Origin: Cephalotus follicularis | Lineage: Eukaryota; Streptophyta; Magnoliopsida; Oxalidales; Cephalotaceae | Direction of reading: 5' to 3' | Assembly: GCA_001972305.1 (NCBI GenBank) | Contig: BDDD01000115.1 | Coordinates: forward strand, 610,485 to 674,484 | Length of the DNA: 64,000 bases | Part shown: piece by piece, positions 1-63,156 of the stretch | Position numbering within the stretch: the first letter of the stretch is position 1 | How the letters are laid out: every line of letters begins with the position of its first letter | The notes under the pieces: generated by a model | The model's input: the letters and a program-made list of their open reading frames with translations, nothing else | What the model was told of the DNA's origin: nothing | Databases searched by the model: none | Program-made: the position numbers and the translations under genes

Positions 1-299
1 TATATATATATAGGCCATTCCTCAATTTGGGTTATCCTCTCCAATTGGGACTTATATATATATATATTCATTCATTTCCCCTTTTAAAGCCCAATTGCTA
101 TACATATATATATATATATAATGAGGAGAAAATAATTTCCTAAGCCCAAGGTCATAAATTTATATATATATATACCCAAAATCATAATTTATTTTTCATT
201 AAGGCCCAATTAAATATATATATATATACAGGCCCAGCCCAAAAGGTGGAAAAATAATTATAAAGCCCATTAATAATATTTTATAATATTTAAGGCTCT

Positions 300-1331
300 T
301 ACATTCAATATTCACATCCTTATATATATATATATATTTTAGAGAAGACTCGGAGCAGGAGGTTCAATGTTCACGTTATATATATATATAACAGCCTTCA
401 AAGAAGACTCCCAAGAGAGCAGTCAGAGTATATATATATATATACATGTCCTTAAACCTCTTAACAGCCTTCAAAAAAGACTTCTATATATATATATAGA
501 GCAGGTCCTTGATATAGGACCATAGCTCTCCAATCTTTTATATATATATATACAAAGACTCCCAAGGGAGCAAATGCTGGTTTGCAAACCCATATATATA
601 TATATAACCAGACCTAAAACGTAGCTTGATCTGCGAACACATAAGATATATATATATATAAGTCTTGTTAGCTGAGCGCTTTGATACAAGTGTCCTCACA
701 TATATATATATATAGTTGACCTGGTCTGGAAAATCTCAGACCAGTACGTAATGCTATATATATATATAATAAGAACTTGTCAGATCATACTAAAACTTTG
801 TCAAAGCATATATATATATATAGACCACAGCTCTGCCAGTCTCAAGAAGACTAAATCTTTAATATATATATATATAAGACTCCCATGGGATAATTCAAAG
901 CAGGTCCTTGATACAGTATATATATATATAAAGTCTGAAGCAGACTATAAAGGCTTAAAGCTTTAATACATATATATATATATACTCCCAGCCGATCAGT
1001 AGTCAGAGCATGTCCTTAATACAAGACCATAGCTCCCAAGATCTGCTTCCGTCAGTGCAGGTTCCCGAAGTCTACTTCTATATATATATATACTTGATAC
1101 AGGACTATAGCTCCTGAAATCTGCTTCGGTCATATATATATATATATACAGGATCACAGCTCTCCAAGTCTGAAGAAGCTTTAATATATATATATATATA
1201 GACTACCTCCTCAAAAAGCAAGAGAAGCCCATAAGCCAAATATATATATATATACCTGCTCAAGCAAGATCACATCGTAAATGTTGCTCATCTTTATATA
1301 TATATATAGAATAAGGACCAGGGGGGGCATC
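300..1331 (+). mobile_element. 3' non-coding tail of a Tat-like Gypsy element
   Basis: Between the TA blocks the sequence repeats phrases such as 'aagactcccaagagagcag', 'gcaggtccttgatacag' and 'ctttgatacaagtgtcctc'. These also occur in the post-integrase region of the Gypsy element at 22270-22780 and, inverted, at 59150-59800. It ends in a polypurine run (about 1315-1328, ggaccaggggggg) like that before the 3' LTR at 26071-26088. No protein-coding segment is visible, so only the end of the element is in the window. The first 300 bases are AT-rich and I cannot assign them. Confidence 0.6.
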
Positions 1332-1620
1332 TGATATGAAAAAATTCTTATATATATATATACACTGACACGTGTCAGTTGAAGCCATAAATACATGGGC
1401 AATATATATATATATATGATTATAATGGGGAAATAACTCCTCCATTCAAAAAGAAGGAAACGCCTCCAACCGTTTTTAAGGGACCAATAACCCCCTCCAT
1501 GATGTTCAAAGACAGTTACAGTAGGTACAGTTATAAATACCCCATAGAAAGACTATGAGGGGGTCGAACAACTTACCATATACTAGTTATCATCTATGCT
1601 ATCAACTGACTTAAGTATTA
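1332..1620 (+). repeat. 5' part of a Gypsy 3' LTR
   Basis: It begins TGATATG directly after the polypurine run, the position where a 3' LTR must start. It contains promoter-like 'acagttataaatacccc' (about 1527-1543) and a following 'ctatcaactgacttaag' reminiscent of the R/U5 part of the LTR at 13000. The far end with a CA terminus is not recognisable, so it is probably truncated near 1620. The TA block sites at 1457, 1511 and 1565 are vacant here. Confidence 0.5.
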
Positions 1621-3300
1621 TATATATATATAGAGTAAAAACTCATGAAATTTCGATAGTTTGCTTTTTGTGTATATATATATATATAGAAAACTGAAAT
1701 ACAGTACTTTCTTCGGAGCATCCAACTATATATATATATAATCAAATCCCTACACATGGAGGACTATTGTAAAGTTGATTTATATATATATATAAATTAT
1801 GAAAAGTACGTGTACGATACATTATCGTCATGTTTATATATATATATACTCAAATTTTCTTTGTCTCACCATCTAAATGATGTCAATATATATATATATA
1901 TATCTATAAACTACTTATCATCAATTTAATTACTTATCATCATATATATATATATACAAAGACCCTTAAAACAATGGATAATCTCTTTTTAATACATATA
2001 TATATATATATTACTATGTAAATCGTAACTTTCACGTACATTTTAGCAGGTATATATATATATAAGACTCAAAACTTGGATAAGGAATGTTTGGATATGC
2101 GAAATATATATATATATATGTGAGTCAAAACCATGCAGAAAGAAAAATGACATGATAATATATATATATATATATTGGTTGGGATTAGTCGTCAACATTT
2201 TGGGCTACTATATATATATATATATACGGTGTTTTCAATGCATGTACGCAAGTAGGCCAATAAGCTTATATATATATATAACGACAACGTTGTTTTTAAA
2301 TGCAAGTATGCAATAATGCATATATATATATATAGAAGTGTAGATAGATTGGACTTTGTAAAAACAAACAGCCTTATATATATATATAAAGAAAAATTGG
2401 ATCTACATACAATGAATTTGGTAGCACATATATATATATATAAAAAAAATATTTAATGTACTTGATTGTAACTAACATTTTTTATATATATATATAATCT
2501 GAAATTGCACTTCTCCTTGAAAAGAGAAAAAGTAAGTATATATATATATATCTGATTTTTTTAATTAAAGTACTAATTTGCCTTTTCGTTTATATATATA
2601 TATATTACTATTTTATTCCAATTCTATGAATAAATTTCAATTATTATATATATATATAAATATAAATCACATATAAAATTATCAATTTTATCCTATATTA
2701 TATATATATATATAATATATTTGTATTTTTACGTGAGACTAACCTTTTTTTTTATATATATATATACAAACTAATTGCTTAAATAATTATAGTAATCCAA
2801 ATAAAATATATATATATATACTATATAAAATATACAATGTTAATATATTTGTATTTTTACTATATATATATATATTTTTTTTAATTACAACCCCAAACTA
2901 ATTGCTTAAATAATTATATATATATATATTATGCTATCTTCAACTATATACTTTTACATCAAATGATATATATATATATATAGATGAAATATATCATAAT
3001 TGCTTTTAGTATAGTACAGATTTATATATATATATACAATTAATCTTATATTTTAGCCTTTAATTTTTTTTTTTTTTATATATATATATAATATACAAAA
3101 TGAGAAATAGTCGATGCAAACATGTCATCTTATATATATATATATCATTTATGAATTGAATTTCAATTTTCATTTTCAAATATACTCTTAATAAAATAAT
3201 AAGTTAGTCTTTGGAATTTAAAATATGATAAATAATTCAATTTTTGTTGTAAACTTATGGGATTAACTAATAATTGAAGATTATACTACAAAGAGAGATA
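1621..3300. other. AT-rich stretch without recognisable gene
   Basis: Very AT-rich sequence carrying the TA blocks. 'ttaatatatttgtatttttac' occurs twice near 2715 and 2840, and 'ccaaactaattgcttaaataattat' also occurs twice (about 2766 and 2893), so there is a local duplication of about 127 bp. I see no coding region or RNA gene. Confidence 0.6.
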
Positions 3301-3473
3301 GAGAGAAAGTGAGAGAGAGAATAAGAGATTTTCTTATTATGAATTCTATATATATATATAAACAATACATTCCTATTTATAGGAGTCTAGGGGGTTGTTG
3401 TATATATATATATATGTTGGAATAGTGTTTGGTTGTTGGAATAGTAATTCACTATATATATATATATATTTAC
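3300..3473 (-). repeat. Copia 3' LTR (part)
   Basis: It shares the phrase 'tatttataggag', then 'gttgttg', then 'ggaatagt', then 'tggttgtt.gaatagtaatt.acta' with 8890-8955 at the other side of the coding region. The inner end is set by 'tttaca' followed by 'atactcccacttg', the reverse complement of a polypurine tract. A GA-rich run (3294-3328) lies just outside or inside the left end. Confidence 0.55.
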
Positions 3474-3497
3474 AATACTCCCACTTGAATTTCTATT

Positions 3498-4000
3498 CTA
3501 TATTACTATGACTGCCTCGCTAAAACTTGTTAGGAAAAACTCATTGGGATAAAAACCTTTGCTATATATATATATAACAGTCTCCCGCTGAAACCAAACT
3601 TCACAAGTTCTTGAACTATATATATATATATCTTTAATCTGACGCATCCTAATATCATGTCTGAGCTTCTTATATATATATATAGGTAATGCCTTCGTAA
3701 ATAAATCTGTTAAATTGTCACTTGTATATATATATATAACATCAATATCACCCTTTTTTCTGAAGCTCATGGGTGTAGTATATATATATATAAATATGTT
3801 TCGTTCGATCACCCTTGATATATCCTCCTCTGTATATATATATATAAGCAACATTATCTTCATATATTACAGTGGGATTATTTCTATATATATATATATA
3901 ACATGATTCTCGTATATGTTGAATCATTGATTTCAACCATTATATATATATATATGCTTCATGAATTGCAAGGATCTCTGAATGATTCGAAAAAGTTGTT
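3498..4000 (-). pseudogene. Copia RNase H region
   Basis: The minus strand carries 'IYEDNVA' (RNase H catalytic region), 'GDRTKHI' and 'DNLTDLFTKALP' followed by KKL and a GMR-like 'DIRMRQIKD', the usual C-terminal end of plant Copia polyproteins. Between 'KALP' and 'KKL' exactly four residues read IYIY, where Copia proteins normally also have four residues. The TA block has therefore replaced, not lengthened, the coding sequence. The frame is broken by stops and frame changes and cannot be functional. Confidence 0.7.
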
Positions 4001-4549
4001 GTCATTGTGTGTTTTGTTGATCGCCATGATATAGCAGTGTCACAAAAGTATATATATATATAGGTTTTTGATCTTGCTTTATGTGGATCAGACAAGTATC
4101 CATATATATATATATAAATCAATGTTAATTTTGTTCCCCTTTAATAAAATAGACTATATATATATATATAACGCAGATAGCGCATTATGTGCTTAATCCT
4201 ATTCCAGTGCTATATATATATATAAGAGCTATATCTTGCTAGTAAATTGACAGAGAATGCAATGTATATATATATATAATTTGTAAGATATAATAGTGCT
4301 CTAATTGCGCTAAGATAATATATATATATATAAAGGATTTCTTCTCCTTCTTCTTGAGGACGAAATGGATCATATATATATATATAAGATCAAACTACCA
4401 TTGGAGTGCTTAGAGGATAAGCTTTGTCCATGTTGAATCGACTAAGAACCTTTTCAGTGTATGTGGATTGATTGATGAAGTATATATATATATAGTGCTC
4501 CATCTGTATACCAAGACAAAACTTTGTTTTTCCATATATATATATATAA

Positions 4550-5903
4550 AACTCACATTTTAAATAGGTTACAGTCTTTGTAAGTTCTTATATATATATA
4601 TAAAGATTTAAGTCATCCACATATACTGCAATAATAGCAAATTATATATATATATATTTTATAAAAATACGTGGACATATTTGATCGTTTGTATACTATA
4701 TATATATATAATATTCACTTAGTCGATTGTACCACATTCGACCAGATTGTTATATATATATATACAAACGTTGTAGCTTAATTGAATACATGTCTCGAGA
4801 TTTGTATATATATATATATTTAAATCCATAAAGAATTCTCATATATATGTCACTATCATATATATATATATAGTATGCTATTACTAAGTCCATAAGACGA
4901 GTTTCAAGTCCGTATATATATATATAACTAATTAGGAATCGAAAAGTGAATCCATCCAAAACTGAATATATATATATATAGTAATCAATACCTGGTCTCT
5001 GTGAGAACCCTTGAGCTACATATATATATATATATCTCACAATTTCATTTTTCTCATTTCGTTTTCGAACAAATTATATATATATATAAACAGGGGTTAC
5101 ACCATTTGGTGTTTGAATTATTGGTCCATATATATATATATAGGACAAAGATTGCAATTCTGCTTGTATTGCATCTTTCCATTATATATATATATATCTT
5201 TGTTGACATTGTTCAACACTTTGTGGTTCAGGATCCTATATATATATATAAATATCCAATGCAACGACATAGGCAAATTTGTCATTAACTTATATATATA
5301 TATAATTCCATATTTGTTTATTATGTGCATAATTAATTGAGACTTATATATATATATATCTCACAGCCTCTTCAGGGCTTTGTACTCTCTCTAGAGTCTA
5401 TATATATATATAAAATAACACATTATCTTGTTTTAATGTTGTTTCAGGGTTTTATATATATATATAATTTGCCTTTCATTTTCGTGGTACAATATCTTTA
5501 GCACCATATATATATATATATTTCAACTGTGGTTTAGACTTTAATATATCGATTGAGCTTTATATATATATATATATATCAATTCTTCCTGGAGCATTCA
5601 CAGATGGTATGTAATATATATATATATATTGAGCATCATTAAATGCATCTGGCATTTGATTAGCATATTATATATATATATAATCCTTTGAACTTATAGT
5701 TCACATTCATTTGTACGTGGATTATATATATATATACTTGATGCTTTCCATGAATTTTCATTTTCATTTTTCAATATATATATATATATACCTAACACTG
5801 GGAAAACCAATTCATCAAAGTGACAGTCTGTATATATATATATAAACATGTCGCCTGTTAATGGCTCAAGATACCTTATAATTGTATATATATATATACT
5901 CAC
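4550..5903 (-). pseudogene. Copia reverse transcriptase
   Basis: Readable minus-strand pieces include 'KNENENSWKASS' (start of the RT region), 'VAQGFSQRPGIDY', 'FTFRFLIS', 'LETRLMDLVIAY' and 'DSDIYMRILYGFK'. The catalytic YVDD box is intact at 4612-4623 on the minus strand, between two TA blocks. The domain order and spacing are those of the RVT_2 family. Many blocks overwrite coding bases and several frame changes exist independently of them. Confidence 0.75.
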
Positions 5904-5921
5904 ATAAACTCCAAGTCTGCG

Positions 5922-6450
5922 TTATGGTCCCATCTTACTATATATATATATAGAAATAGGAACATATACTACACATCCAAACACTCTTAAGTGGGATATG
6001 TTTGGTTCTTGACCAAGAACAAGTTGCAATGGAGAATATTTATGATATGCAGTCGGTCTTATACGTATAAGAGCCGCAATATGAAATGTCGCATGTCCCC
6101 AAGCTGAAATGGGTAACTTTGACCTTATCAACAAAGGACGAGCAATCAATTGAATATATATATATATAGATTCGGCTAACCCATTTTGGGTGTGTACGTG
6201 AGGAACAGTATATATATATATAATTCCTATTGCCATGCAATATTCATCAAATGCTTTGGAACTATATATATATATATTATCTAGCCGAATAGACTTTATA
6301 GGATGATCTGGAAATTTATATATATATATATTTATTTGAGCCAATAGTCCTGCAATGCAATATTGCGAGTTATATATATATATACATGCGACCATCTTGT
6401 CGATGCATCTATTAAGACCATGAATATATATATATATATATATGGTGGAT
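5922..6450 (-). pseudogene. Copia integrase core
   Basis: The minus strand reads through 'SIRLDN', 'SKAFDEYCMAIGI', 'VPHVHTQNGLAES' (the segment holding the catalytic Glu), 'LLIRSKLPISAWGHA', 'RPTAYHKYSPLQLVLG' and 'ISHLRVFGCVVYVPI'. This is the conserved Copia integrase tail, and it is best preserved where three consecutive TA sites (5993, 6047, 6101) are vacant. It would join reverse-transcribed element DNA to the host genome. It is interrupted by the overlay and lies between the protease/GAG-pre segment and the RT. Confidence 0.8.
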
Positions 6451-7115
6451 TAATCGGTCCACAAATATCTCCTTGAATTATATATATATATATTGGAGAT
6501 TCTACAACCACTTTTGTTGTAGATGGTTTTAATATATATATATATAGCGAACATTGTCACACCTGGGTGGCCTAGCCGTTCATGCCTATATATATATATA
6601 TTTAAGTCTATGAGTTTTGAATCCACAACATTATGAGATTCAATTGCTCTAATTTTCATAATGTATAGCCCAGAAGAAAACCCATGGAGTTTCTTATATA
6701 TATATATACGGCCGGAAGCATTACCAGTGATATAAAAATATTCTTTGCTATATATATATATAGTTTCAATATGATAACTATTTCGGCGAATATCTTTGAA
6801 ACTATATATATATATACTAGACTTTATTGAATATAAAGCATCTGTGATGCGCATTTTATATATATATATAAACACAAATCTAGCCATCCCAGAACCTTCA
6901 ATTAGGTCTGTATATATATATATAGTTCCAACATTAGCCTTTGCTATTGTTAAATGTGAAAAATTATATATATATATAAGTATTGTGTGTGTCGTTGCAC
7001 TGTCAGCTATGCATATATTATATATATATATAGTCTGATGATCTATAGATAAAAACACACATGTTATTAATATATATATATATATAATATTTAACATCAT
7101 AAGCACTTTATTCAC
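6450..7115 (-). pseudogene. Copia protease and GAG-pre-integrase segment
   Basis: The minus-strand frame contains 'IADSATTHTIL' (the position of the aspartic protease D-S/T-G-type site of Copia, here reading DSA), followed by 'FSHLTIAKANVGTI', 'GKNGEYFYIT'-like spacing near 6730 and 'RHERLGHPGVTM' of the GAG-pre-integrase zinc-binding motif. Apart from IYIY substitutions it stays open for 221 codons, so the overlay itself does not create stops in this frame. Confidence 0.7.
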
Positions 7116-7148
7116 AAGTGATAAACTATATATATATATAACATAACA

Positions 7149-8203
7149 TCAACTGAGATGGAAGTCTTCATCGACAATTATATATATATATATATCGTTT
7201 AGATCAGTTACGAAATCAGTAATGTCCAAATGGGTATATATATATATACCAAAGTCTGATTGCGTAGTTTCCAAAGGGTCACAATGACCTATAAAATTTG
7301 TTTCAATTCGTTTGTCTTTCTCTTTTAGATAAGCTTGATATATATATATATATATATTCGCTATGCGACAAGCACGGTACCAATGACCTTCCATACTATA
7401 TATATATATATTACCCTTTCTATTTTGGGTTTGTTCATAATTACTAGATTTATATATATATATACACTTTTGACGTTGTTTTGTATCAGGATTTTGCCAT
7501 TTCATATATATATATATACGTGGCCCCAAGAAATTTTGATTTCTTCCACTGCCACGTCTATATATATATATACTTCCTCGTCCTCTAAAATGGGACGAAG
7601 TTGCATTTACCTTATATATATATATAGAACCAGTGGGACGATTCTCATGATTTTGCAGGAGTAATTTATATATATATATAGCAATAAGAAGAGATCCAAT
7701 TAGTTCACGATATTTCTTGATATATATATATATATACTATTGTTACAGTAACACATTGGATGCATGAAGTGTTCTATATATATATATAAGCAACATATCC
7801 TCGGTGATAACTTCACCACACATCTTTATATATATATATATATTGAATAACGTGGAATTATATTCTGAAACTGTTTTAAAATTATATATATATATATGTG
7901 ACCAATCATTCAATGCCTTTGGCAGTAGAACAGCTTTCAAGTACTCAAACCTATCATTTAGGTTTTGCCACAGTTCAAGTGGATTTTCAATATATATATA
8001 TATATATTTCAGGCCATCATCAATACGAGTCTTAGGAAAATCAGTATATATATATATACCTCATTTGATACTGCATTATCTTCATCAATTGTGTGCCTTA
8101 TATATATATATATCAAATGCAGTTTCACATCAATTACCCACGATAGATAATTTATATATATATATACAAGAGTAATGAATTTCCGATTTTCAATGTTTGT
8201 CAT
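7149..8203 (-). pseudogene. Copia gag
   Basis: The most likely start is the ATG complementary to 8201-8203, giving MTNIENRKF, typical of plant Copia gag. Downstream are 'YLSWVIDVKLHL', 'RHTIDEDNAVSNE' and, near 7400, the zinc-knuckle half 'MEGHWYRACR' followed at normal spacing by 'QAYLKEKDKRIE'. The first Cys pair of the knuckle coincides with the TA block at 7397 and is lost. At least two further frame changes separate the pieces. Confidence 0.7.
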
Positions 8204-8429
8204 TTTTATATATATATATAAGATAAAAATAAATATCATTTGAGCATAGTAAATAAATAATATATATATATATAAAAAAAATTTGGGACCTCATTGGTGC
8301 AATCATAGGTCACGTATATATATATATAACCACTTGAGCATAATGGGGCTTGCCGAGACACGAATGCCTATATATATATATAAACGAGCAGCTTCCTACC
8401 ACTAAGTCACCACCTCAAGTGATATATAT

Positions 8430-8975
8430 ATATATAAAGATTAAATATATATAGATATATGATAATATCCTTACTTTATATATATATATAATCAAATATT
8501 AAATAATTACAATAATTAAAATTGATCATATATATATATATATAAATATATAAAGCAGTAAACGGGTTCACCTATACATCGTAATATATATATATATAAT
8601 ATTAAATATATAGGTTCCCACTAAGTCTCGGGCGATTCTATATATATATATATACCTCAAGGACAATAAATCATAATAATGTTTCACACCACTATATATA
8701 TATATAGCACATATAAGTAATACATTAAAGTAATAATAGAGACATATATATATATATATAGTCGGTACTCCGTACAAAGGATGAAAACGCGAAATTTTAT
8801 TATATATATATATAATATACGTTTTCACACATAGGCTTATATGTGTATGTATATATATATGTATACATATATTTGAAAGACTAATACATTCTTATTTATA
8901 GGAGTTTAGGAGTTGTCGGAATAGTTTTTGGTTGTTAGAATAGTAATTTACTATTTATGTTGATAATTTTACGAT
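8430..8975 (-). repeat. Copia 5' LTR (approximate)
   Basis: It lies upstream of gag on the minus strand and ends on the right in 'gttgataattttac', matching the end of the left LTR. The inner limit is not visible; the segment 8240-8430 would be leader, but a primer-binding site could not be found and may be overwritten. The low-complexity 'atgtgtatgtatatatatatgtatac' at 8842-8867 is native and not in phase with the 54-bp grid. Confidence 0.45.
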
Positions 8976-10316: not shown

Positions 10317-10373
10317 GGACAAACCTCTTACTTTTTACACACAACCTTAATTCATTCATAGACCATATTCACT

Positions 10374-11951
10374 ATGGTATTCCTTCTCTTCATTTTGTTT
10401 CTCCCCTTATTTCTCTTGTTTCTTCTCCAAAAGCACTGGCTCCATAGAAATGTTCATCTCCCTCCTGGCCCTCGAGGGCTTCCCTTAGTCGGTAGCCTCC
10501 ACCAGATTATTAGCTCAAACCCTCCTCTTTATTTATGGCGACTCTCTAAAAAATATGGTGCCATCATGTCCTTAAAACTTGGTCTTGTACCAGCCATAGT
10601 GATTTCTTCTGCCAAATTGGCTAAAGAGGTCTTGACAGCTCAAGATAAAATATTTTGTAGTAGACCACAATTGCTGGGCCAACATAAATTGTCCTACAAC
10701 GGCCTAGATTTGGCTTTTGCACCATACGGTGCCTGTTGGAGAGAGACGAGGAAAGTATGTGATGTTCATCTCTTCAACTCTAGGCGAGTGCAAAGTTTTC
10801 GCTCAATTCGAGAAGAAGAGGTGTCACGGATGATGGAGAAGATAAGCAAATCGGATGCCATTACCAACTTGAGTAAGGAAATGATGTGTCTTTCAAGTAC
10901 CATAATATGTAGAGTTGCTTTCGGCAAGAGATATGAGAACGAAGAAAATGAAAGAAATGGATTTAAGGAGATGCTAAAAGAAACTCAAGCCATGCTTGGA
11001 ACCTATTTTGCCTCAGACCATTTTCCTTTCATTGGTGGCTTGATCGATAGACTCACTGGATTGATTGCTCGACTTGAAAAAAACTTCATAGAAATGGACA
11101 TGTTTTGGCAAGTACTCATCGATGATCACCTCGACCCAAAGAGACCAAAACCCGCGCAAGAAGACATACTCGATATTCTACTTCAAATATGGAAGGATGG
11201 TGGTTCCAATATCCAGCTTACTTGGGATCACATCAAAGGAGTGCTCATGGTAAGCTGCTTTTCGGTCCAATTACTTAAATCTCAATTATCTATAATTTAT
11301 TAAGCATCAAATGATACCTTTTTTGGGGGCTGAGGGCAGGATATATTTATTGGTGGAACAGATACAACTGCAGCCTCTGTGACATGGGCCATGACATTCC
11401 TAATGAAGAATCCTAGAATCATGAAGAAAGCTCAAGAAGAAGTTCGAAATTTATGTGGAAATAAAGGTTTTGTAAATGAAGATGATGTCCAAAACCTACC
11501 TTATCTAAAAGCTGTAGTGAAAGAGACTTTGAGACTACAACCAGTTGATCCTTTACTAATTCCAAGAGAAACAATGCAAAGCTGCAAATTAGATGGCCAT
11601 GACATACCAGTCAAAAGCATAGTATACGTAAATGCATGGGCTATTGGAAGAGATCCTGAAGCATGGGAAAACCCAGAAGACTTTAATCCTGACAGATTTA
11701 TTGACAGTTACATTGACCTGAAAGGTCAAGATTTTGGACTTATTCCATTTGGTGCTGGTCGCAGAATTTGTCCCGGGATGAATATGGGAATTGCCATCGT
11801 TCATATAGCACTTAGTAATCTTCTTTACAAATTTGATTTGGAATTACCAGCAGGGATGACAAGAGAAGACTTGGATTTCGAGATGTTACCAGGTATTGCA
11901 ATGCACAAGAAAAACGATCTTTGCATCGTGACTAAGGACCATATATTGTGA
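10374..11951 (+). CDS. Cytochrome P450, CYP71 clan (two exons)
   Basis: Exon 1 is 10374-11249 (292 codons) and exon 2 is 11340-11951 (203 codons plus stop); the 90-bp phase-0 intron starts GTAAGC and ends GGGCAG. The 495-residue product is normal for a plant microsomal P450. It has an N-terminal membrane anchor (residues about 2-20), a proline hinge 'LPPGPRGLPLVG', the I-helix 'GGTDTTAAS' just after the splice junction, 'KETLRLQP' (ExxR), 'FNPDRF' (PERF-type) and the haem loop 'FGAGRRICPG' with its Cys ligand. CYP71/CYP83-type proteins are ER-bound monooxygenases of specialised metabolism supplied with electrons by P450 reductase; the substrate cannot be told from sequence. The intron position before the I-helix is the conserved one of A-type P450s. 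No stops or frameshifts are seen. It stands alone between retroelements. Confidence 0.93.
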
Positions 11952-12220: not shown

Positions 12221-13194
12221 TGAGAAAAATCTGTTTATACTAAGTAGGACACGTGTCCACCGTGAATTTAGCCAGATGTCCAAGAAATCTTGAAGCTCAC
12301 ATAGACACCGGTCTGAGGAAGCTTTATGGAACACAGCTAAGAAGAGGGCGAGGAGTCCCTTCTTTAACATCAAAGCCAAGGAGCCCTTGCATGACAGAGG
12401 ACCTCCTTCACGGCACCAGTGCCGAGGACCTCCTCTCCCCGAATGAGCTTTTACTTAGATACAGGGCAGAGGACGTCCTTCAAGGCACCAATGCCGAGGA
12501 CCTTCTCTATCCGAGGAGCAGTCAATCGGATACATAGCAGAGGACGTCCCCCACTGCACCAGTACCGAGGACCTCCTCTTCGGCTATATCCAAAGAGACC
12601 TCATCCTCGGCAGTATGGCAGAGGACCCGGCGTCCCAAGCACACGCCCCTGAAGAAGCTCCAGACATTAAAGACCTTGAAGCAGATATGAGACCAGAGGA
12701 CATCTCTCATCTTCATCCTCCTCCTCCTCTGCTACATGGCGCCACAAATTCAGCCTATATTCAAGGAGTCGATCTCTACAGATATGGAAGGTGAGGTATA
12801 ATAAACTACCTACAAGGAAAGTAGCGACAAATCAGGTGGAGATAAGGGAAATCCCGAGATCCTCGGCATTTCCTTAGGGGACAACTATCACCTCCGCATT
12901 TCACGCTCAAACAGTTACAAACCAGCACTATAAATACAAGAATCAAAGACATATCTCAGGTCAGCCACTTTTACATTTGAAAGAACCTTGTTTTCTCTGT
13001 GCAAAGCCTAACTTGAGCGTTGGAGTGTCCCCGGGAGAACAACCTCCTGGACCTTGAACGTGTTTGCTCTTATGTATAGGAAAAAACACTTACAGCCATC
13101 CTCATCCTTCATCTTGGAGCATTAAAACAGCGTTTCCCTAAACAAATCAAGCCCTTACACGTGGGGTACTGTTGAGGGAAGAATTTTTGCATCA
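12221..13194 (+). repeat. 5' LTR of the Tat-like element
   Basis: It starts TGAGAAAAATCTG and ends TGCATCA, and pairs with 26098-27065 over its full length. It contains repeated 'gccgaggacctcct' / 'cagaggacgtcc' units (12390-12640), a 'ctataaatacaag' TATA-type box (12928-12940) and a long pyrimidine-rich end. The spurious frames inside it are not genes. Confidence 0.9.
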
Positions 13195-18075: not shown

Positions 18076-18905
18076 TCAGTCGCATCTGGTGGCGACCACA
18101 AAAATGCAAGAAAAGCCTACAGGAGACAGTCCCTTGCTGTGCAACAAGTCCATCACAGCAAAAGGCTTAGAACTGGTGGAGACGAGAAGGTGATAACCTT
18201 CTCGGAGGCGGACTATGAGGGAGTACGTCTCCCTCACGATAATCCAGTGGTGGTAACTCTTCTGGTGGAATTCTTTACCATTAATAGAATCCTTATAGAC
18301 AGTGGCAGCTCGGCCGATATCCTATATAAACATGCATTTGATCAGCTGATGATATCGGCAGACCAGCTAAAGCCCGTGAAGACCCCACTGGTTGGCTTTG
18401 CAGGCGAGATGATCCATCCTCTAGGATCCATCAACCTATCCGTGGTTGCAGGCACGGCCCCACGCCAGACTCAGGTAGAGATGACATTCCTGGTGGTGGA
18501 CACACCCAGTCCTTATAATGCCATAATAGGGCGACTAGGTCTGAACTTAATAGAGGCCATAGTGTCTACGAGACACTTGTTAGTGAAGTTTCCAACGAGG
18601 TTTGGTGTGGGGGAAGTCAGAGCAGACCAACAGGAAGCAAGGCAGTGCTACAGAGCTGCCATCTTGGATAAGGGGAAGGTCAAGGAACTTACCATAGCAA
18701 ACGTGGAGCTCAGAGGAGACATGAAACCCAGCCTATTGAGGACGTGGTCCAAGTGCCCTTGGAAGAGAGCAGCACTGAAAAAATGTTCCAAGTTGGCTCA
18801 CAGCTTGGAGAGGTGGAGAAGGGGGAATTAATAGCATTCCTCCGAGATAATAAAGATGTCTTTGCCTGGTCGGCGGAGGAGGTCCCTAGGATCAGCCAGA
18901 TGTAA
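18076..18905 (+). pseudogene. Tat-like aspartic protease and linker to RT
   Basis: After 'VASGGDH' the frame continues through 'ADYEGVRLPHDNPVVVTLL', the active site 'LIDSGSSADILY', 'PLVGFAGEMIHPLGSI' and 'FLVVDTPSPYNAIIGR', the flap and second-half signatures of Gypsy retropepsins. A frameshift follows 'VELRG' (about 18715). The linker sequence ending 'DNKDVFAWSAEEV' continues in another frame to a stop at 18902. The active-site triad DSG is intact, unlike the copy at 63630. Confidence 0.85.
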
Positions 18906-18922
18906 TATTTCACAAACTAAGC

Positions 18923-20866
18923 GTGGATCCAGCGAGACCCCCGACCAGACAAAAGAAGAGGAACTTTGCTCCAGATAGGCAGCAGGCAATAGCAGAGGAG
19001 GTGAGCAAGCTGTTGCAGGCAGGGTTCATAAGGGAAGTGTATTACTCAGACTGGCTGGCGAACCCAGTACTAGTCAAAAAAGCAAATGGCAAGTGGAGGA
19101 TGTGCATCGACTTCACAGAACTCAACAAAACTTGCCCAAAGGATCACTTACCTCTCCCAAAGATAGACCAGTTGGTGGATGCGATCTCGGGTTACAGAAT
19201 GTTAAGCTTCTTGGACGCCTACTCGGGATACAATCAAATTCCCATGTACGGGCCCGACGAGAATAAGACAGCATTCATCACGGACCGAGGAATGTATTAC
19301 TACAAGGTTATGCCCTTCGGCTTGAAGAATGCAAGGGCCACCTATCAACGTCTGGTAAACAAAATCTTTGAGCCTCAGATTTGGAAAAATATGCAGGTCT
19401 ACATCGATGACATGCTCGTCAAGACCCCGGCCAGGAGCCCCCACATAAAAGACTTGGAGGAAACGTTTGAGCTGTTGAGGAGATACAACATGAAACTTAA
19501 TCCATCCAAGTGCACATTTGGGGTCACCTCTGGCAAGTTCCTCGGATTCATGGTCTCCAGCAGAGGAATAGAGGTCAACCCAGAGAAGATCTCGGCAATC
19601 CAAAGCATGAGGCCTCCTCAAACCATCAGGGATGTTCAAAGGTTAAATGGGAAGATTGCAGCCCTGAGCAGGTTTGTGTCAAAGTCAGCAGAGAAGTGCC
19701 TTCCCTTCTTCAAAATACTCAGAGATCCCAAGGGATTTTCTTGGTCAAACGACTGTCAAGCAGCCTTCAACAAGTTAAAGGAATACCTGGCTTCCCATCC
19801 TCTGATCTCAAAACCTAAGAATGGGGAAGACTTGTATTTGTACCTTGCAGCCACCTCGGGCGCAGTGAGTGCAGTGCTAGTCAGTGAAGATGAAAAAGTT
19901 CAAAAGCCAGTATACTACGTGAGCAAGGCTTTGAATGATGCCGAGGGGAGGTACCCAGAGGTGGAGAAGTTTGCCTATGCTTTGATTATCTCGACCAGAA
20001 AACTGAGGCCATATTTCCAAGCCCATACAATCAAGGTTCTGACTGACAAACCACTCAAACAAGTTCTTGCAAAGCCTGACACCTCGGGCAGGTTAATCAA
20101 GTGGTCAGTCGAGTTTGGCAAGTATGATATGAAGTTCGAAGCCAGACCAGCCATCAAATCACAGGTCCTGGCCGACTTTGTTGGAGATAATACACCTACG
20201 GAGTGTATGGAGGAGGACCCCTCCGAGAGTGAGAGGGGAATTTGGAAGTTATCTGTGGATGGCTCATCATGCATCACTGGCAGTGGAGCAGGTCTAGTAC
20301 TGATGAGTCCAGATGGTTGGACGTTAGAGTATGCTCTGAGGTTCAAGTTTAAAGCTACAAACAACGAAGCTGAGTGGGAAGCTCTGATAGCGGGGCTGAC
20401 AATTGCAAAGCACTTGGAGGCACAAAAGGTGGAGGCCTCCAGTGATTCTCAGCTAGTGGTTGGTCTAGAAAATGGAGAGTAGGAAGCCCGAGAAGACTCT
20501 ATGGCGAAATACTTATCCCATTTTCTGAGTATGAAATCAGCCTTCAGTTTTCTAAGAATTTTAAAAGTACCCAGAGCAGAAAACGCCCGAGCAGACCAGT
20601 TATCAAAACTAGCAACGGCAGAGGAGATGGAGAAGAATCAAACCGTTCTAGTAGACTACCTGGACAGGCCCACCATCTCTGAAGCAGATGTGATGGACAT
20701 TGACATACCGGAAGAGCCAAACTGGATGACTCCTTTCATCAATTGGCTGAGAAATGGAATTCTATCAGAGGACCCCGTAGAGGCAAGGAAACTAGTGTAC
20801 AGAGCAAATAGGTTCCAATTCCAAGATGGGATCCTCTACAAAAGATCTTTCTCTTTCCTTGGTTAA
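18923..20866 (+). pseudogene. Tat-like RT, RNase H and second RNase H
   Basis: The RT shows 'KWRMCIDFTELNK', 'FLDAYSGYNQIPM', 'KVMPFGLKNA' and the catalytic 'VYIDDMLVK'. Then come 'LLRRYNMKLNPSKCTFG' and 'GFMVSSRGIEVNPEKI' of the thumb, the first RNase H ('YLYLAATSGAVSAVLV', 'YPEVEKFAYALI'), and a second, archaeal-type RNase H ('WKLSVDGSSCITGSGAG', 'ATNNEAEWEALIAGL', 'SSDSQLVVG'). The frame is open for 519 codons, interrupted only by TAG 20480-20482, and then continues to 20866. The second RNase H is a known feature of the Tat lineage. Confidence 0.9.
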
Positions 20867-26097: not shown

Positions 26098-27065
26098 TGG
26101 GAAAAATCTGTTTATACTAAGGAGGACACGTATCCACCGTGGATTTAGCCAGATGTCCAAGAAATCTTGAAGCTCACATAGACACCGGTCAGAGGAAGCT
26201 TTATGGAACGCAGCTGAGAAGAGAGCGAGGAGTCCCTTCTTTAACATCAAAGCCGAGAAGCCCTTGCATGACAGAGGACCTCCTTCACGACACCAGTGCC
26301 GAGGACCTCCTCTCCCCGAAGGAGCTTTTACTTGGATACAGGGCATAGGACGTCCTTCAAGGCACCAATGCCAAGGACCTTCTCTATCCGAGGAGCAGTC
26401 AATCGGATACATAGCAAAGGACGTCCTCCACTGCACCAGTGCCGAGGACCTCCTCTTCGGCTATATCCAAAGAGACCTCATCCTCGGAAGTATGGCAGAG
26501 GACCCGGTGTCCCAAGCACACGCCCCTGAAGAAGCTCCAGACACTGAAGACCTTGAAGCGGATAGGAGGCCAGAGGACATCCCTCATCCTCCTCCTCCTC
26601 TGCTACATGGCGCCACAAATTCAGCCTATATTCAAGGAGTCGATCTCTACAGATATGGAAGATGATGTATAATAAACTACCTACAAGGAAAGTAGTGACA
26701 AATCAGGTGGAGATAAGGGAAATCCTGAGATCCTCGACATTTCCTTAGGGGACAGCTATCACCTCCGCATTGCACGCTCAAACAGTTACAAACCAGCACT
26801 ATAAATACAAGAATCAAAGAAATATCTCAGGTCAGCCATTTTTACATTGGAAAGAACCTTGTTTTCTCTGTGCAAAGCCTAACTTGAGCGTCGGAGTGTC
26901 CCCAGGAGAACAACCTCCTGGACCTTCAACGTGTTTGCTCTTCTGTGCAGGGAAAAACACTTACAGTCATCCTCATCCTTCATCTCGGAGCATTAAAACA
27001 GCGTTTCCCTAAACAAATCAAGCCCTTACACGCGGGGTAGTGTTGAGGGAAGAATTTTTGCATCA
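26098..27065 (+). repeat. 3' LTR of the Tat-like element
   Basis: TGGGAAAAATCTG...TGCATCA, 968 bp, matching the 5' LTR along its whole length with scattered substitutions (for example gacacgtatcc against gacacgtgtcc). It is followed by unrelated AT-rich DNA. Confidence 0.9.
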
Positions 27066-33639: not shown

Positions 33640-35668
33640 AAGTCCTCAAGCTAACATTGCTTTATTCTTTCCACTAGAGAAGGTTGAGCTATGACTTGAG
33701 ATAGGGAAGCTCATTCTCCTTGTTTTCTCACTTCCAAATTCATCCTTTGGAAATCTCTTATGAATTCTTCCTGTGAGGTGATCATCATAGCCAAGTTCCC
33801 CGTACTTTTTCGGCTCAGGGCGTCTGCCACGACGTTTACTTTTCCCAAATGGTACTAAATTGTGCAGTCGTAGTCCTTGATAAGTTCCAGCCACCTCCTT
33901 TGACTCATGTCTAACTCCTTTTGTGTGAAAATATATTTGAGGCTGTTGTGATCGGTAAAAATCTCGCACTTCTCTCCATATAGATAGTGCCTCCAAATCT
34001 TTAGCGCGAAAATAACTATAGCCAATTCCAAATCATGGGTAGGATAATTCTGTTCATGCGCTTTAAGCTGTCAAGAAGCATAAATGATCACTTTTCCTTA
34101 CTGCATCAGCACACAACCCAATCCTTTACAAGATGCATCGCTATACACCACGAAAGTTTCAGATTCCATTGGCAAGGCTAATATTGGTGCATTCATCAAC
34201 CTCTCTTTCAATTCCAAGAAACTTCTTTCTCATTGGTCAGACCATTCAAACTTGACATTCTTCTGCGTGAACCTTGTGAGAGGATTCGCAATGCGAGAGA
34301 AATTCTCGACAAACCTTCGATAGTAGCCTGCCAGTCCCAGAAAACTTCGTATTTCAACTACTGATGTGGGTCTCTGCCATTCTCTTATTGCTTCTGTCTT
34401 GGCGGGATCGACTGAGATACCTTCCTGTGTGATCACATCCCCCAAGAAGGATATTTCCTCCATCCAAAACTGGCATTTTCTGAACTTAGCATAGAGTCAT
34501 TCCTTCGGCAGTGTTTGTAACACACGGTTTGAATGCTCCTCATGTTCTTCTATACTCTTTGAGTATACCAATATGTCATCAATGAAGACTATCACGAACT
34601 GGTCCAAAAATTCATTGAATATTCTGTTCATCAATTCCATAAATACCGCCGGAGCATTCGTTAATCCAAATGACATTACTAAGAACTCGTAGTGCCCATA
34701 TCTTGTCCGAAAAGCAGTTTTTGGTATATCATTTTTTTTACTTTCACTTGATGGTAGCCCGATCGAAGGTCAATCTTTGAGAAGTATCGAGCATTCTTGA
34801 GCTGAATAAACAAGTTGTCAATCATTGGTAGTGGGTATTTATTCTTGATGGTGACTCGATTCAGCTCTTGATAATTTATGCAGAGTCTCATTGTTCCGTC
34901 TTTCTTCTTTACAAACAGTACCGGTGCACCCCATGGTGATACGCTTGGCCGAATAAATCCTTCATCCAAAAGTTCTTGTAATTGAGTCTTCAATTCTTTC
35001 AATTTGGCTGGCGCCATGCGGTAAGAACTCTTTGAAATAGGGGCTGTTCCAGGGATTATATCAATCGTAAACTCCACTTCTCGATCTGGTGGCATACCCG
35101 GTAAATCTTCAGGAAAAACATCGAGAAATTCCTTAACAACATGTAACTCTTCTATCTTTATCTTTTCCTTGTCAGTATCCATCACATAGGCAAGATAGCC
35201 TTTGCATCCTTTTCCCAACAATCGCTTAGCTTGCATCGATGATATGATCCTTAGAGGTTCACTAACTCTCGTGCTTCGGAAGATAAACTCAGGTCGGTTA
35301 GGTATAGAAAACCTAACTTCCTTCTTGAGACAATCAACACTAGCATGATTCATCGAAAGCCAATCCATGCCTAGTATGATGTCAAACTTTAGGATTGCTA
35401 TAGGTACTAGGTCTACTAGCATCATCCTATCGCATATTCTTAGATCACAAGACTTGTGTACCTTATCAGCCACCAAAGTATTACCACTTGGTGTTTCAAT
35501 GGCTAGACCTATCTCCAACTCTTGCAATGGGATACTTAAACATTGTGTAAAAGATAAGGACACAAATGAATGTGTCGCTCCTGTGTCAAACAATACATGT
35601 GCAGATTTAGAGCATACGGGAAAAGTACCTGTCACCACATCGTTAGGATTTTCTACCTCATCCGCCAT
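33640..35668 (-). pseudogene. Chromovirus-like Gypsy pol: protease, RT, RNase H; integrase missing
   Basis: The minus strand opens with ATG 35668 and shows the protease '[15 protein letters not shown]', '[11 protein letters not shown]', '[18 protein letters not shown]', then RT '[18 protein letters not shown]' and '[15 protein letters not shown]'. A frameshift near 34735 precedes the rest: the YxDD-type box '[11 protein letters not shown]' (about 34555-34595), '[19 protein letters not shown]', '[16 protein letters not shown]' and RNase H pieces ('[12 protein letters not shown]' in a broken frame near 33970). It ends in the DALSRK region at about 33800 and meets the LTR at 33598 without an integrase. 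There is no gag upstream of 35700. Confidence 0.82.
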
Positions 35669-35689
35669 TAGAAGAGGTCTAAGCGTCGA

Positions 35690-35880
35690 AGTTTACCTTC
35701 AAAGCGTCACTGCTTTAAGAAACCGTCGGTGCTTATGTGACCTTGTCTTGGCCTGTTGACGTTTGAAGCATTCGTTCGATGGTTAAGGCTAAACGCTGGC
35801 GCTTAATCTACACCGTCGATGCTTTAAACAATTCCGTCGACGCTTAACACTATCCGGTCGATGCTTTATCCCCTGTAAAC
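35690..35880. repeat. Cluster of TCGA-centred palindromes
   Basis: Seven or more variants of 'agcgtcgacgct' / 'gcatcgacgg' within 190 bp, at or just upstream of the start of the protease ORF of the neighbouring Gypsy element. 35880-35940 is ordinary AT-rich sequence. Confidence 0.6.
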
Positions 35881-48115: not shown

Positions 48116-49351
48116 TGCAATATACAAGAAGGGGGGGGAATTGAATATTGAGGAATATGCGGAAATTTAAAAACTTTAAAAGTTAAAGAGATAAGGAAAG
48201 AAAAACTTCTCCGAAATTTAGAGTGGTTCGGCTAACTCTTGCCTACGTCCACTTTTCCCAAGGGTGCTCCTTGAGTTTCCACTATCTCGAATTGATTATG
48301 GTAGCAATTTGTTACACCTCATAATTTTGGTGATTGAACTCAATCACAAGACCTTGACCTCAAGACCTTAGAGGATTCACCTCTTTTACAAGTGTTTATA
48401 AATGTGTTTACAAGGTAACCTCTCAATAGGTTTGATCTAGCTTATAATACAGAACACAATAGAAATCACAGGAAGACCTCAAAGAATAGAACTATGAAGC
48501 CTTTTTGAGAACACTTAGGAGCACTTGAGCTTTGTAAAATGCTTGAATCTTTTGTTTCTTGATTGTTGTTTCTCTATCTCTCCTGATGGTTTTGGATCTT
48601 CCTTTATATAGACAAAAAAGTCTTGTAGCCGTTGCATAAATCATGGAGATTTAAGATATAAAAATGATGTGTTGATGCAATTCTGTTTTTATGCCTGCCG
48701 AGATAAAGACGTCGATGTCTTTTGAAAGGAGTCGATATCTTTGTAGGTTACTAGCCGTTGCAAGTGGGTTTACTAGCCGTTCCTTAATTCCCGGGTCAAA
48801 CAATTTGAAAAGATGTCGATGTCTTTCATTGGCGTCGATGTCTTTTCTGGGAATGTATCCAAGCATTTGAGGTTATGAGCATCACGTCGATGTCTTCTTG
48901 AAGGATCAATGTCTTTTCTGGATTTTGCAGTTGACTCTTCAAACACATCGATGTCGAAGGAAAGGGATCGATGCCTTTTATTTGGACGTCGATATCTTTA
49001 CATACAAGGATCGATGTCTTTAATCAAAATCGACCTGTAACTTTTGTGCACTAAAGACGTCGATGTCTTCTTGAAAAGGGATCGATGTCTTTCTTCGAAA
49101 ATGGCCTGTAACTTTGGTCGCACAAAGACGTCGATGTCTTCTTCAAAAGGGATCGATGTCTTTCTTCAAAAATGGCCTGTAACTTTGGTAGCTCAAAGAC
49201 GTCGATGTCTTCTTCAAAAGGGATCGATGTCTTTTCTTTAAAACTGTCTTTTGCCTTTTGTGAATCTTTCTAACATCTTGCACATTAAGTGAACTTTGTT
49301 AAATGCAAATATGTTATCATCAAAACTAGGATTGAGACTAAAATGTCAACA
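48116..49351 (-). repeat. Sirevirus-like Copia 3' LTR
   Basis: Minus strand starts TGTTGACATTTTAGTC at 49351, immediately after the purine tract 'aaaaagggggagat' (49352-49365) typical of Sireviruses, and ends about TTGCA at 48116. It contains the 'gagtggttcggctaac...cctacgtccac' sentence known from Maximus/SIRE-type LTRs and a large palindrome cluster (48700-49240). Confidence 0.7.
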
Positions 49352-52832: not shown

Positions 52833-54162
52833 GCATTCAGGACGAGGATCAGAATCATAAGAAGATTCATCGCCCGAGGTATCTTCGCATATGTCGATTG
52901 TCTTGGATACATCAAGCTTTCATTCCAAGCGCTTGAGACGTCTTTTGCTGACATGTAATTCATAACAGAGTGTGTCCTCTATCATCTCAAAGTCAAATCG
53001 AATAGTCATGTGATCTTTTTCCAAATTTTCGAGGTGTGAATTTACTTGCTGGAATTTTCCTTCAATTGATGCTTCCATCGAGTCGAACCTAGTATTCAAT
53101 GCATCAAATCGAGTGCTCATGAATTCCATCATTTGATCATACTCACAGGTAGAAGAAGAGCCATGAGTTTGAGCAAGTGCTGCTTCTTGTGCTTCCCAAG
53201 AAGGGATCTCTTCATGTTCTTCTCTCTCAATTTTCTGGACTTTTTCACTTTTTGGACAGTAAGTCCAATTTCCATCTTGTTTCTTCCAGCCCATGCGATT
53301 TTAAAGTGCTTTTGTTGTACGTATCTTCCTTCTTCAGCTTAGTTCCAATCTCCCCTTCAAGACATACATCATGGTATCGAAAGATTTTGGTTAAGATGCA
53401 ACCAAAGGGAAGGACAGATTTCTTCTGTGAAAAGGCACGCACCATTGTGTGGAGCATAAGCAGTGGATAACAAAACTCGATTTTGGAAATGATGCACCAC
53501 ATTAGGAATGCTTGCATCCTCGTGAGTTTTGCATAACCACCACCGGTAGGAAGAAATTGATGAACAATGAGGTGATGTAAAAGACGATGATCAACCGAGA
53601 GCTTGTTTGTGTAAAGGGCCATGTTGGGATGAATGTTTGGATCATTAGGGTAGAGAATTGATAAGATGTTGTTTGGGTGAAAACCTTCGACTTCCGGCCA
53701 TTTCTTGTATTCAAAGATATACAAGCCGTTGCGAGGAATATGAAGAATTGATGCAAGAATCTTATCATTTAAAAAGATTCTTTGACCTTTGACAGTTGAG
53801 GAGAGGGCAAATTCTTCATGAGGACTAGACACAATCCTTAAGTTCATGTAAAATTCTTTGATAAGCTTGACATAAAACATATCTTGAATTTGAACTAAAG
53901 GAATGAGATGTAAATCTTCTAGCCAAGAAACAAAAGAAAACTCATTAGAACAAAAGGATAAATCTATGTTCCTACCACCCATTACCCTTTTGTCAACAAA
54001 TGCAACATTGCGGACAGGAATTTATTCTTCGGATTCGGAATCCGATTGAAGAGCGGGATCGGGAGAAAGTTCCCGAATGTTAAGCTTCCTCTTAGAGCCA
54101 ATTTTCTTAGGTTGGGAAGAGCTAGAGGCCTTCTTTATGCCAGTGGTTTTTGTTCTAGGCAT
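52833..54162 (-). pseudogene. Plant-mobile-domain-like ORF of the Sirevirus-like element
   Basis: The minus strand starts at ATG 54162 with a basic, Ser-rich N-terminus ('MPRTKTTGIKKASSSSQPKK'). It has an in-frame TAA near 54024 and then continues 'MGGRNIDLSFCSNEF', 'LIKEFYMNLRIVSS', 'VKGQRIFLNDKILASIL', 'IPRNGLYIFEYKKW' and 'MALYTNKLSVDHRLLHHLI'. This is the pattern of plant 'putative plant transposon protein' (PMD-like) domains. After a frameshift near 53290 it ends in a coiled coil with 'TRFDALNTRFDSMEAS' and an acidic tail. It lies on the same strand as the Sirevirus-like LTR, where no Copia pol remains. The function of such ORFs is unknown. Confidence 0.65.
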
Positions 54163-56760: not shown

Positions 56761-58785
56761 CAATGTAGGTGGCCGAGTCTTTGCTTTGACTACTCATCAG
56801 GCAGCGGGTGCTCCAGGTACTGTTTCGGGTTATGTCTCTGTTTGTTGTCGTATGGCTTATGTTTTGTATGATACTGGATCGACTCACTCTGTAGTAGCGA
56901 GATCTTTTGTTCGGCATCTTGGGGTGCCATCTCTATCTCTGGATCCAGCTTTGGTTCTTTCGACCCCTATGGGGACATCTGTTGTTATATCTGAATGTTT
57001 TTGTGCTTGTCCTATCGTTTTTGATGACCGCGTTTGAGATGCGGATCTTTTCCCAATAGATATGCATGACTTCGACATGATTTTTGGCATGGATTGGTTA
57101 GATCGCCATCGTGCCACGATTGACTGTCACACTCGGAGGGTTTTGTTTGGGGATGTGGATAGGCCTGATTTTGTTTATCAGGGTTCACAGCCGAGAAAAG
57201 AAGTTAAGGTTATTTCTGCTTTAAAGGCTCGAAAATTGGTAGCTAAAGGTGCTGAGGGGTACCTAGCTATTGTAAAAGACGTCTCTAAGGATGAGGCTCG
57301 CCTTGAGGACTATCCAGTTGTTAGAGAATTTTCAGATGTGTTTCCGGAGGAGTTACCGGGTTTGCCACCGCAACGGGAAGTGGAGTTTACCATCGAGCTC
57401 ATTTCCGGAGCGGCACTGATATCTAAAGCACCTTACAGAATGGCACCGTTAGAGTTGCAAGAACTGAAGAAGCAATTGCAAGAATTGTTGGATCGGGGTT
57501 TTATCTGGCCTAGTGTTTAACCGTGGGGAGCTCCGGTTATTTTGTCAGGAAGAAGGACGGGTCTATGAGGTTGTGCATAGACTACATAGAGCTTAATCGG
57601 ATCACTATTAGAAATAAATACCCTTTGCCTAGGATTGATGACCTTTTTGATCAACTCCAAGGTGCACGATATTTTTCTAAGATCGATTTGAGATCGGGCT
57701 ATCATCAGCTACGGGTAAAGGATGAAGACATAGCTAAGACTACTTTTCGTACACGGTACAGACATTATGAATTCCTGGTGATGCCATTTGGACTTACAAA
57801 TACACCGGCAGTCTTTATGGATATGATGAATCGGGTGTTTCATGAATACTTGGACAAGTTCGTGATTGTGTTCATTGATGACATCCTTGTGTATTCCAAG
57901 TCGAGAGAAGAACATCAAGCTCAACTTCGTATAGTGCTAGGTGTTTTGAGGAAGAATCAGCTTTATGCGAAGTTTTTGACATGTGAATTCTGGATGGAGC
58001 AGGTGACATTTTTAGGCCATGTGGTTACGGCAGATGGTATTAGTGTGGATCCTGCTAAGGTTGAGGCTATTACCAAATGGCCGAGGCCTACTACAGTAAC
58101 GGAAGTTAAGAGCTTTTTGGGTCTGGCTGGCTACTATAGAAGGTTTGTGGAAGGCTTCTCCTCCATAGCCTTGCCACTGACACAACTTTTAAGAAAAGGA
58201 GCCAAGTTTGTGTGGAACGAAGAAAGGGAAGCAAGTTTTGAGAAACTGAAGAACGGTTTGGTGTCTGCACCAATTCTTCGGTCACCGTCTGGGTCAGAGG
58301 GATACCAGATTTACAGTGATGCTTCCAAGAAGGGTTTGGGATGTGTTCTTATGCAGCACGGTCATGTGATAGCCTATGCTTTAAGACAGTTGAAGCCTTA
58401 TGAAGTGAACTATCCTACACATGATCTGGAGTTAGCAGCTGTGGTTTTTGCGTTGAAAATCTGGAGGCATTATTTGTACGGAGAAACTTGTGATGTTTTC
58501 ACTAATCACAAGAGTCTCAAATACATCTTCACGTAAAAGGAGTTGAACATGCGACAGAGGAGATGGTTGGAGCTTTTGAAGGACTATGACCTGAATATTC
58601 AGTACCACCCCGGTAAAGCAAATGTGGTAGCTGATGCTTTGAGTAGAAAGAGTTCTGGAAGTGTGGCGGCTTTGCTTACTCATCCGCAGTTGATAGCAGA
58701 TATGGAGCGTTTGGATTTGAATTTGTTTGTTCGGGGTTCTGGAGGATATATGGCTAGTATGAGTATAGAGCCTACCCTTAGATCA
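56761..58785 (+). pseudogene. Chromovirus-like protease, RT and RNase H; integrase lost
   Basis: In the gag frame the protease reads 'VLYDTGSTHSVVARSF' and, after a TGA near 57038, 'FDMIFGMDWLDRHRATIDC' and 'DVFPEELPGLPPQREVEF'. A stop and a one-base slip near 57520-57540 move to the frame of RT: '[15 protein letters not shown]', '[13 protein letters not shown]', '[12 protein letters not shown]', catalytic '[11 protein letters not shown]', '[16 protein letters not shown]'. The RNase H part has '[15 protein letters not shown]', '[15 protein letters not shown]', '[16 protein letters not shown]' (TAA 58534) and '[16 protein letters not shown]'. The sequence breaks off at about 58785, so integrase and chromodomain are missing. 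Confidence 0.88.
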
Positions 58786-59997: not shown

Positions 59998-61075
59998 CTA
60001 AGCCCTAGGAATCTCCCTACCCCCCAGAGTTTTAAGTTTGAATGTTTCAAGTCGGAGCACCATCTCCACCTTGCAGGATCCATTCCAATTAGGAGCTAAC
60101 TTTCCTCTAGTGCCAGTGGGATCAGCTATTGCCGCATTTCTAAGGACTAAGTCTCCCTCCCTTAGTGGTATGGGGTTTACCCTTTTGTTGTAATAGCGGC
60201 TCACACTCTGTTGGTAGGCTGCTACTCTGATGGCTGTTTTATCTCTAAGCTCTTCCACTAAGTCGAGGAGATTCGTCAAACCTTCTTCATTATTAGCTTC
60301 ATTTAAATTGACAACTCTGGGAGAATGCACTCCAATCTCTACCGGTATCATAGCTTCTGATCCGAAACAAAGGTTAAATGGTGACTCTCCAGTTGTGGTA
60401 TGAGGAATAGTCTTATAAGCCCACAATACACTTGGGAGTTCCTCTATCCATCTTCCTTTACTAGCTTCAAGGCGTTTCTTCAACCCTAAGATGATTTCTC
60501 GGTTAATGACCTCTGCTTGTCCATTGCTCTGGGGATAGGCTACGGAGGCAAGTATATGTTCAATTGTCCACTCCTTGCAAAAGTTCTGAAAAGCTTCACA
60601 ATCAAATTGCTTCCCGTTATCAGAGACGATTACTTTGGGGACCCCAAATCTGCAAATGATTGATTTCCAGACAAAGCTCTCCGTCTTGCTCTCCGTTATT
60701 GTGGCCATGGGCTCTGCTTTCACCCATTTGTTGAAGTAGTCCATTGTCACGATGAGGTACTTTCTCTACCTTGTTGCCATGGGTAATGGTCAGACAAAGT
60801 CCATTCCCCATTGGGCAAAGGTCCAAGGGGCAGTGATAGATGTCAAAGGCTCTGATGGTCTTCTGCTTATGTTGGCATTCCTCTGACACTTATCACATTT
60901 CCTCACAAAGTTGATGGCATCTTGGTGCATGGTCGGCCAGAAATAGACTTGCCTTAACAATTTATTGGACAAGGTTCTGCCCCCCGTGTGATTTTCACAT
61001 ACTCCTTTATGGACTCTCTTAGAGCGTAGTCTGCCTCTCAAGGAGCTAGACATCTTAACAAAGGGAAAGAGAATG
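59998..61075 (-). pseudogene. Tat-like integrase, second copy
   Basis: The zinc-binding part 'HTGGRTLSNKLLRQVYFWP' with 'KCDKCQRN', then 'FAQWGMDFV', 'KVIVSDNGKQFD' and 'YPQSNGQAEVINREII' hold the catalytic residues. The C-terminal part includes 'YYNKRVNPIPLREGDLVLR'. From 60750 down to 59998 the frame is open for 250 codons, so this half is better preserved than in the first copy; a short frame break lies at 60750-60790. Confidence 0.88.
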
Positions 61076-62328: not shown

Positions 62329-63111
62329 TTAGATCTTTTCTGGCTTGGCCTCTATTCCTCTACTAGAGACCATGAACCCAAGAAATTTACTAGAGGTGAC
62401 CCCAAAAGTACACTTGGAAGGATTGAGGCGCATATTGTATTTGTTTAGCACCCAAAAATTCTCATCCAAGTCTCTAATATACGGACTCCTCTCAGGTGTC
62501 TTGACGAGCATGTCGTCAATATAAACCTCCATATTCCTCCCGATTTGAGGTTGAAAAATTTTGTTGACCAACCGTTGGTAGGTTGCTCCAGCATTTTTTA
62601 ATCTGAAGGGCATAACTTTATAACAATACATACCCTTATTAGTGATGAAGGCTGTCTTGTTCTCATTTGGTCTGTACATAGGAATTTGATTGTAGCCAGA
62701 GTAAGCATCCAAGAAGCTCAATATTCTATAGCCGGAGGCTGCATCCACTAGTTGATCAATCTTTGATAGGAGGAAGTGGTCTTTTGGACAAGCCTTGTTG
62801 AGGTCTGTGAAGTCTATACACATCCTCCACTTTCCATTTACTTTCTTGACTAGTACCGAGTTCTCTAACCAGTCAGAGTAGAGCACTTTCCTTATAAACC
62901 CCGCTTGTAATAGCTTATTTACTTCGTCTGCTATTGCTTGCTGCCTCTCGGGGGCAACGTTTCTCTTCTTTTGCCTGACTGGGGGCCGCATTGGATCCAC
63001 ACTTAACTTGTGGACCATCACCTCTAGGTTGATGCACGAGACTTTTTCTGTAGACCAAGAAAATACATCTTTGTTGTTTTTGAGGAACGTTATTAGTTCC
63101 TCTCTCTCCAC
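62329..63111 (-). pseudogene. Tat-like RT, second copy
   Basis: 260 open codons with 'VRQKKRNVAPERQQAIADE', 'KWRMCIDFTDLNKACPK', 'FLDAYSGYNQIPMYR', 'YKVMPFRLKNAGA' (F-G changed to F-R), the catalytic 'VYIDDMLVKTPE' and 'LNPSKCTFGVTSSKFLG'. It ends at an in-frame TAG (62329) just before 'SMKPPQS'. Confidence 0.86.
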
Positions 63112-63156
63112 CTCCCCAAGCTGGGAGCAAACCTAGAAAAACTTCTCTGCATTTCC

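Follow-up and report, generated by a model that had tools for sequence, protein, structure and literature searches.

A phase-locked (TA)7 grid over 8.8 kb of plant DNA is most likely a data artefact

In the first 8.8 kb of the window (the whole 64,000-nucleotide stretch of Cephalotus follicularis DNA analysed here), the exact 14-letter word TATATATATATATA, or (TA)7, stands at nearly every 54th letter. Almost certainly these blocks were laid digitally over plant DNA that is otherwise ordinary. An earlier reading made from the sequence only had favoured a synthetic overlay or a processing artefact; this remains the most likely origin, as protein alignments and a DNA paralog within the same window cross the tested blocks without added length. 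The features on which the argument turns are collected in Table 1.

Table 1. Coordinates of the grid, its longest gaps and the pieces compared with homologs or paralogs
Feature	Position	Strand	Remarks
(TA)7 grid, sites 53+54k	1..8814	none	147/164 sites filled, first truncated by window edge
DNA outside Copia element, holds block 593-606	554..644	+	gapless match to 59484-59394, same window
Three empty sites in a row, k = 26-28	1457..1578	none	ordinary DNA, phase kept
Three empty sites in a row, k = 58-60	3185-3306	none	ordinary DNA, phase kept
Copia-type reverse transcriptase piece, block-crossed	4753..5073	-	homologs; Pfam RVT_2 1.6e-4, under its cut-off
Copia-type integrase piece	5925..6449	-	homologs; Pfam SH3_retrovirus 3.6e-5, under its cut-off
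Three empty sites in a row, k = 110-112	5993-6114	none	ordinary DNA, phase kept

Geometry of the grid

We scored 164 grid sites (k = -1 to 162) by counting mismatches to (TA)7 at each. The filled sites comprise 146 complete blocks and one cut at the window edge; the word is its own reverse complement and the grid is therefore without strand. Mismatches per site were either 0 or 6 to 12, with no near-miss block among the 164 sites; since nothing lies between 0 and 6 mismatches, the pattern is all-or-none. The earlier claim that blocks start in steps of 54 from 53 to 8801 holds for the phase, which is kept at 147 sites, but not for completeness, as 17 sites have no block. The same reading had placed the tail of a further block, expected at -1, at the start of the window, and bases 1-12 are indeed 12 bases of TA, that tail. 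Every TA/AT run of at least 14 bases in 1-8814 covers a grid site. The triple pattern (TA)7-N40-(TA)7-N40-(TA)7 occurs 122 times in the window and 0 times in each of 100 dinucleotide shuffles. The coordinates are fixed regardless of content, the filled sites lying on 53+54k across differing sequence types. The last block ends at 8814, near one likely LTR, and the grid ignores the boundaries of the underlying sequences.

On the grid, TA runs longer than 14 bases fit a 14-base block plus chance neighbours, judging from the composition of the flanking bases: the base preceding a complete block is A in 53/146 cases (spacer background 2149/6560) and the base following it is T in 41/146 (background 2163/6560). 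The filled blocks total 2056 bases with no differences, giving an upper 95% bound of 0.0015 per base; the blocks are exact by the counting rule, yet no mutated block was set aside, because mismatch counts of 1 to 5 are absent from the 164 sites. Shorter off-grid TA/AT runs within 1-8814 are found at 4841-4848 and 8445-8453, and past 8815 there are two TA runs of at least 12 bases, one of 18 bases at 41709 and one of 12 bases at 50012. The spacers had been described as unrelated to each other. This is broadly correct, but some are alike, for example 1015-1054 and 1093-1132, owing to repeats in the underlying DNA. The composition of the spacer columns is near background, and Tandem Repeats Finder reported no 54-base array in 1-8814.

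The empty sites (k = 4, 18, 26-28, 58-60, 64, 73, 81, 110-112, 122, 134 and 146) carry ordinary DNA that departs from (TA)7 at 6 to 12 positions, and the phase is unshifted across all 17. They include three runs of exactly three. At least three runs of at least three empty sites arose with a frequency of 4.5e-5 among 200000 random placements; the empty sites are thus clustered beyond simple scatter. Their GC content is 0.366, against 0.343 in the spacers.

Replacement of native sequence by the blocks at the places tested

Beneath the grid lie first repeats with relatives near 59 kb and then a minus-strand Copia-type retrotransposon that occupies much of 3.3-8.9 kb; the grid also extends over about 3.2 kb ahead of this element. 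In minus-strand order, integrase (6449-5925) is followed by reverse transcriptase pieces at 5073-4753 and 4587-4393, with Pfam scores under the curated cut-offs; of nine Copia pieces searched against Pfam, none had a match that reached its cut-off. Integrase thus precedes reverse transcriptase in pol, as in Copia-type elements. Likeness to this class also comes from the plant homologs of both pieces. Likely LTR pieces (3364-3391 and 3415-3454 versus 8883-8910 and 8914-8953; 62/68 positions identical, 6/68 different) may flank the element, which is only part of the sequence under the grid. An inserted block adds 14 bases and shifts the reading frame, while an overwritten block does neither. We tested replacement in two coding pieces and in two further stretches of DNA outside the element. 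At the block at 3401 the likely LTR pair does not discriminate, as its copies are of unequal length there as well.

The integrase piece, on which replacement was chiefly tested, is a single open frame of 175 residues that crosses six filled blocks and three empty sites, with the blocks translating as Tyr-Ile in this frame. We compared it with 120 listed homologs of 880. Among these, residues lying wholly inside blocks were identical in 38/2368 comparisons (1.6%), against 8283/11354 (73%) for spacer residues and 1105/1440 (77%) for residues wholly within the three empty sites. Residues partly in a block matched in 425/1194 comparisons; for residues only partly within an empty site, the figure was 549/720. 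Of these same 120 alignments, 115 were gapless, and a gap was found within two residues of a block in only 2/588 block crossings. The empty sites act as an internal control in these alignments, with native protein present wherever the stamp is absent. YIYI or IYIY was seen in 3 of the 240 listed homologs (P0084, P0091 and P0222), each with one such run and no grid. One integrase homolog, P0025, is 62% identical and is recorded under the bacterium Dyella mobilis; plant contamination of this record seems likely.

The reverse transcriptase piece points the same way, its alignments agreeing with replacement less cleanly than those of integrase. Among 120 listed homologs of 273, matches were found in 150/2314 comparisons for residues wholly in blocks and in 28/575 for those partly in blocks, compared to 6343/8824 for spacer residues. 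Gapless alignments accounted for 35 of the 120, and 80/573 crossings had a gap no more than two residues from a block. These gaps are probably natural length differences between homologs. The one gapped alignment that we inspected in print has a two-residue gap beside the last block.

DNA was also compared within the window with the blocks masked. The self-match aside, two of the resulting pairs cross a block. In the first, 554-644 and 59484-59394 align 91 bases to 91 with no gap, and 14 ordinary bases face block 593-606. In the second (607-696 and 59277-59191), 14 ordinary bases again face the block, with 5 gap positions elsewhere. At the places tested, these comparisons indicate that the blocks overwrote 14 existing bases, with length and frame kept; from the common grid, the same would apply to all the remaining blocks. 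Insertion is rejected at the tested places, since the alignments preserve length and frame: neither the integrase alignments nor the DNA pair is lengthened.

Origin of the blocks

The best explanation is that a letter-level process overwrote 14 bases with (TA)7 once in each step of 54; such a process would have spared about one site in ten and ended after 8814. Two observations weigh against it: the gaps beside blocks in the reverse transcriptase alignments, and the clustering of the empty sites beyond that of random placement. We infer that the overlay arose in a file rather than in DNA, and a single process was probably responsible for all the blocks. A fixed period, a fixed unit, a conserved length and indifference to the underlying contents are what the grid has in common with synthetic overlays and masking patterns in sequence files. 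The titles and abstract openings of the papers retrieved pointed to no specific tool and no published example. We know of no biological process that overwrites bases in this way across unrelated sequences. The overlay may have been deliberate or accidental, a file accident being possible, and we keep both as sub-cases.

The likelier of the two is that the overlay was added purposely once the sequence had been deposited, to serve as a control in a scan such as this one, in which case the public record would be without blocks. The simple unit, the exact period, the phase-keeping empty sites and the clean stop look designed, although this is a matter of inference only. The distribution of the pattern elsewhere is also consistent with a purposeful addition: no contig of a viral collection contained the triple pattern, and its sole two matches in a prokaryote collection were stretches of long, near-pure TA runs and not the grid. 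A pattern with a 94-base gap is uninformative, because its gap can hold a block. Against a purposeful addition, the first block is already cut at base 1 of the window, and a grid present upstream in the record would also be compatible with this.

This mid-block start speaks in favour of the second sub-case, in which something went wrong during assembly, polishing, masking or file conversion and left the overlay within the deposited record. The grid looks as though it ran on upstream of the window edge and, since it begins mid-block at base 1, may extend there. We consider such an accident a tentative and rather unlikely origin: no artefact of this kind was found among the titles and abstract openings of the papers retrieved, and to our knowledge no assembly or masking tool writes (TA)7 every 54 bases.

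It is very improbable that the blocks are genuine TA microsatellites that were inserted at regularly spaced sites or expanded from them, or that they belong to a 54-base satellite with very diverged spacers. TA microsatellites are generally common in plants, and like the grid blocks they are perfect TA repeats within AT-rich plant DNA. Microsatellites, however, vary in length, have imperfect copies and gain bases by slippage or insertion, whereas the grid blocks are of one length, exactly 14 bases plus chance neighbours, hold a 54-base phase over 8.8 kb, show 0 or 6-12 mismatches with no near-misses among the 164 sites, and replace native sequence where tested, without the 14-base lengthening that would be expected in the integrase alignments or the DNA pair. 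The constant 54-base period recalls satellite DNA, but what recurs is only 14 of every 54 bases; the 40-base spacers consist of ordinary sequence, either single-copy-like or from transposons, including Copia coding sequence that is continuous with its homologs rather than diverged satellite units. A satellite is rejected, as the whole unit does not recur head to tail and there is no 54-base array in 1-8814. It is scarcely credible that the blocks are physical. Some process would have had to swap 14 bases at almost all steps of 54 along 8.8 kb or more, across unrelated sequences and with length kept, so recently that no block has mutated, and its mechanism would be unlike any known to us.

The rest of the window and consequences for annotation

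The remainder of the window looks like ordinary plant DNA. We scanned eight of the 24 listed pieces outside the grid for domains, and found a reverse transcriptase domain in four, an integrase domain in one and a plant transposon domain in one. LTR retrotransposon fragments that carry reverse transcriptase or integrase domains lie at 18890-20479 (+), 34682-35692 (-), 57514-58533 (+), 60001-60765 (-) and 62332-63132 (-), and 53248-54021 (-) matches Pfam Transposase_32, 'putative plant transposon protein' (5e-20). About 1.5 kb beyond the end of the grid, two open pieces at 10362-11951 (+) make up a cytochrome P450 gene, with Pfam p450 matches of 8e-32 and 2.4e-63.

A tandem array with a 71-base unit and TCGATGTC words occupies 48985-49243; two other 71-base arrays, at 12395-12579 and 26275-26456, share nearly one common unit that is different from that of the first. 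We also scanned 8815-64000 for 8-base words seen at least 12 times, with one spacing at least 6 times. There was no second phase-locked word in this region beyond three overlapping words at a spacing of 71, which fit the array at 48985-49243.

This analysis found no evidence for a biological feature, and the grid is most likely a data artefact and not a new feature of the genome. Comparing homolog identity inside and outside the blocks, with the unstamped sites as a control, distinguishes overwriting from insertion and needs no raw reads. An overlay of 14 bases in 54 hides protein domains, and gene and repeat annotation would be misled by it. The overlay thus matters as a question of data quality, and most likely not as one of biology.
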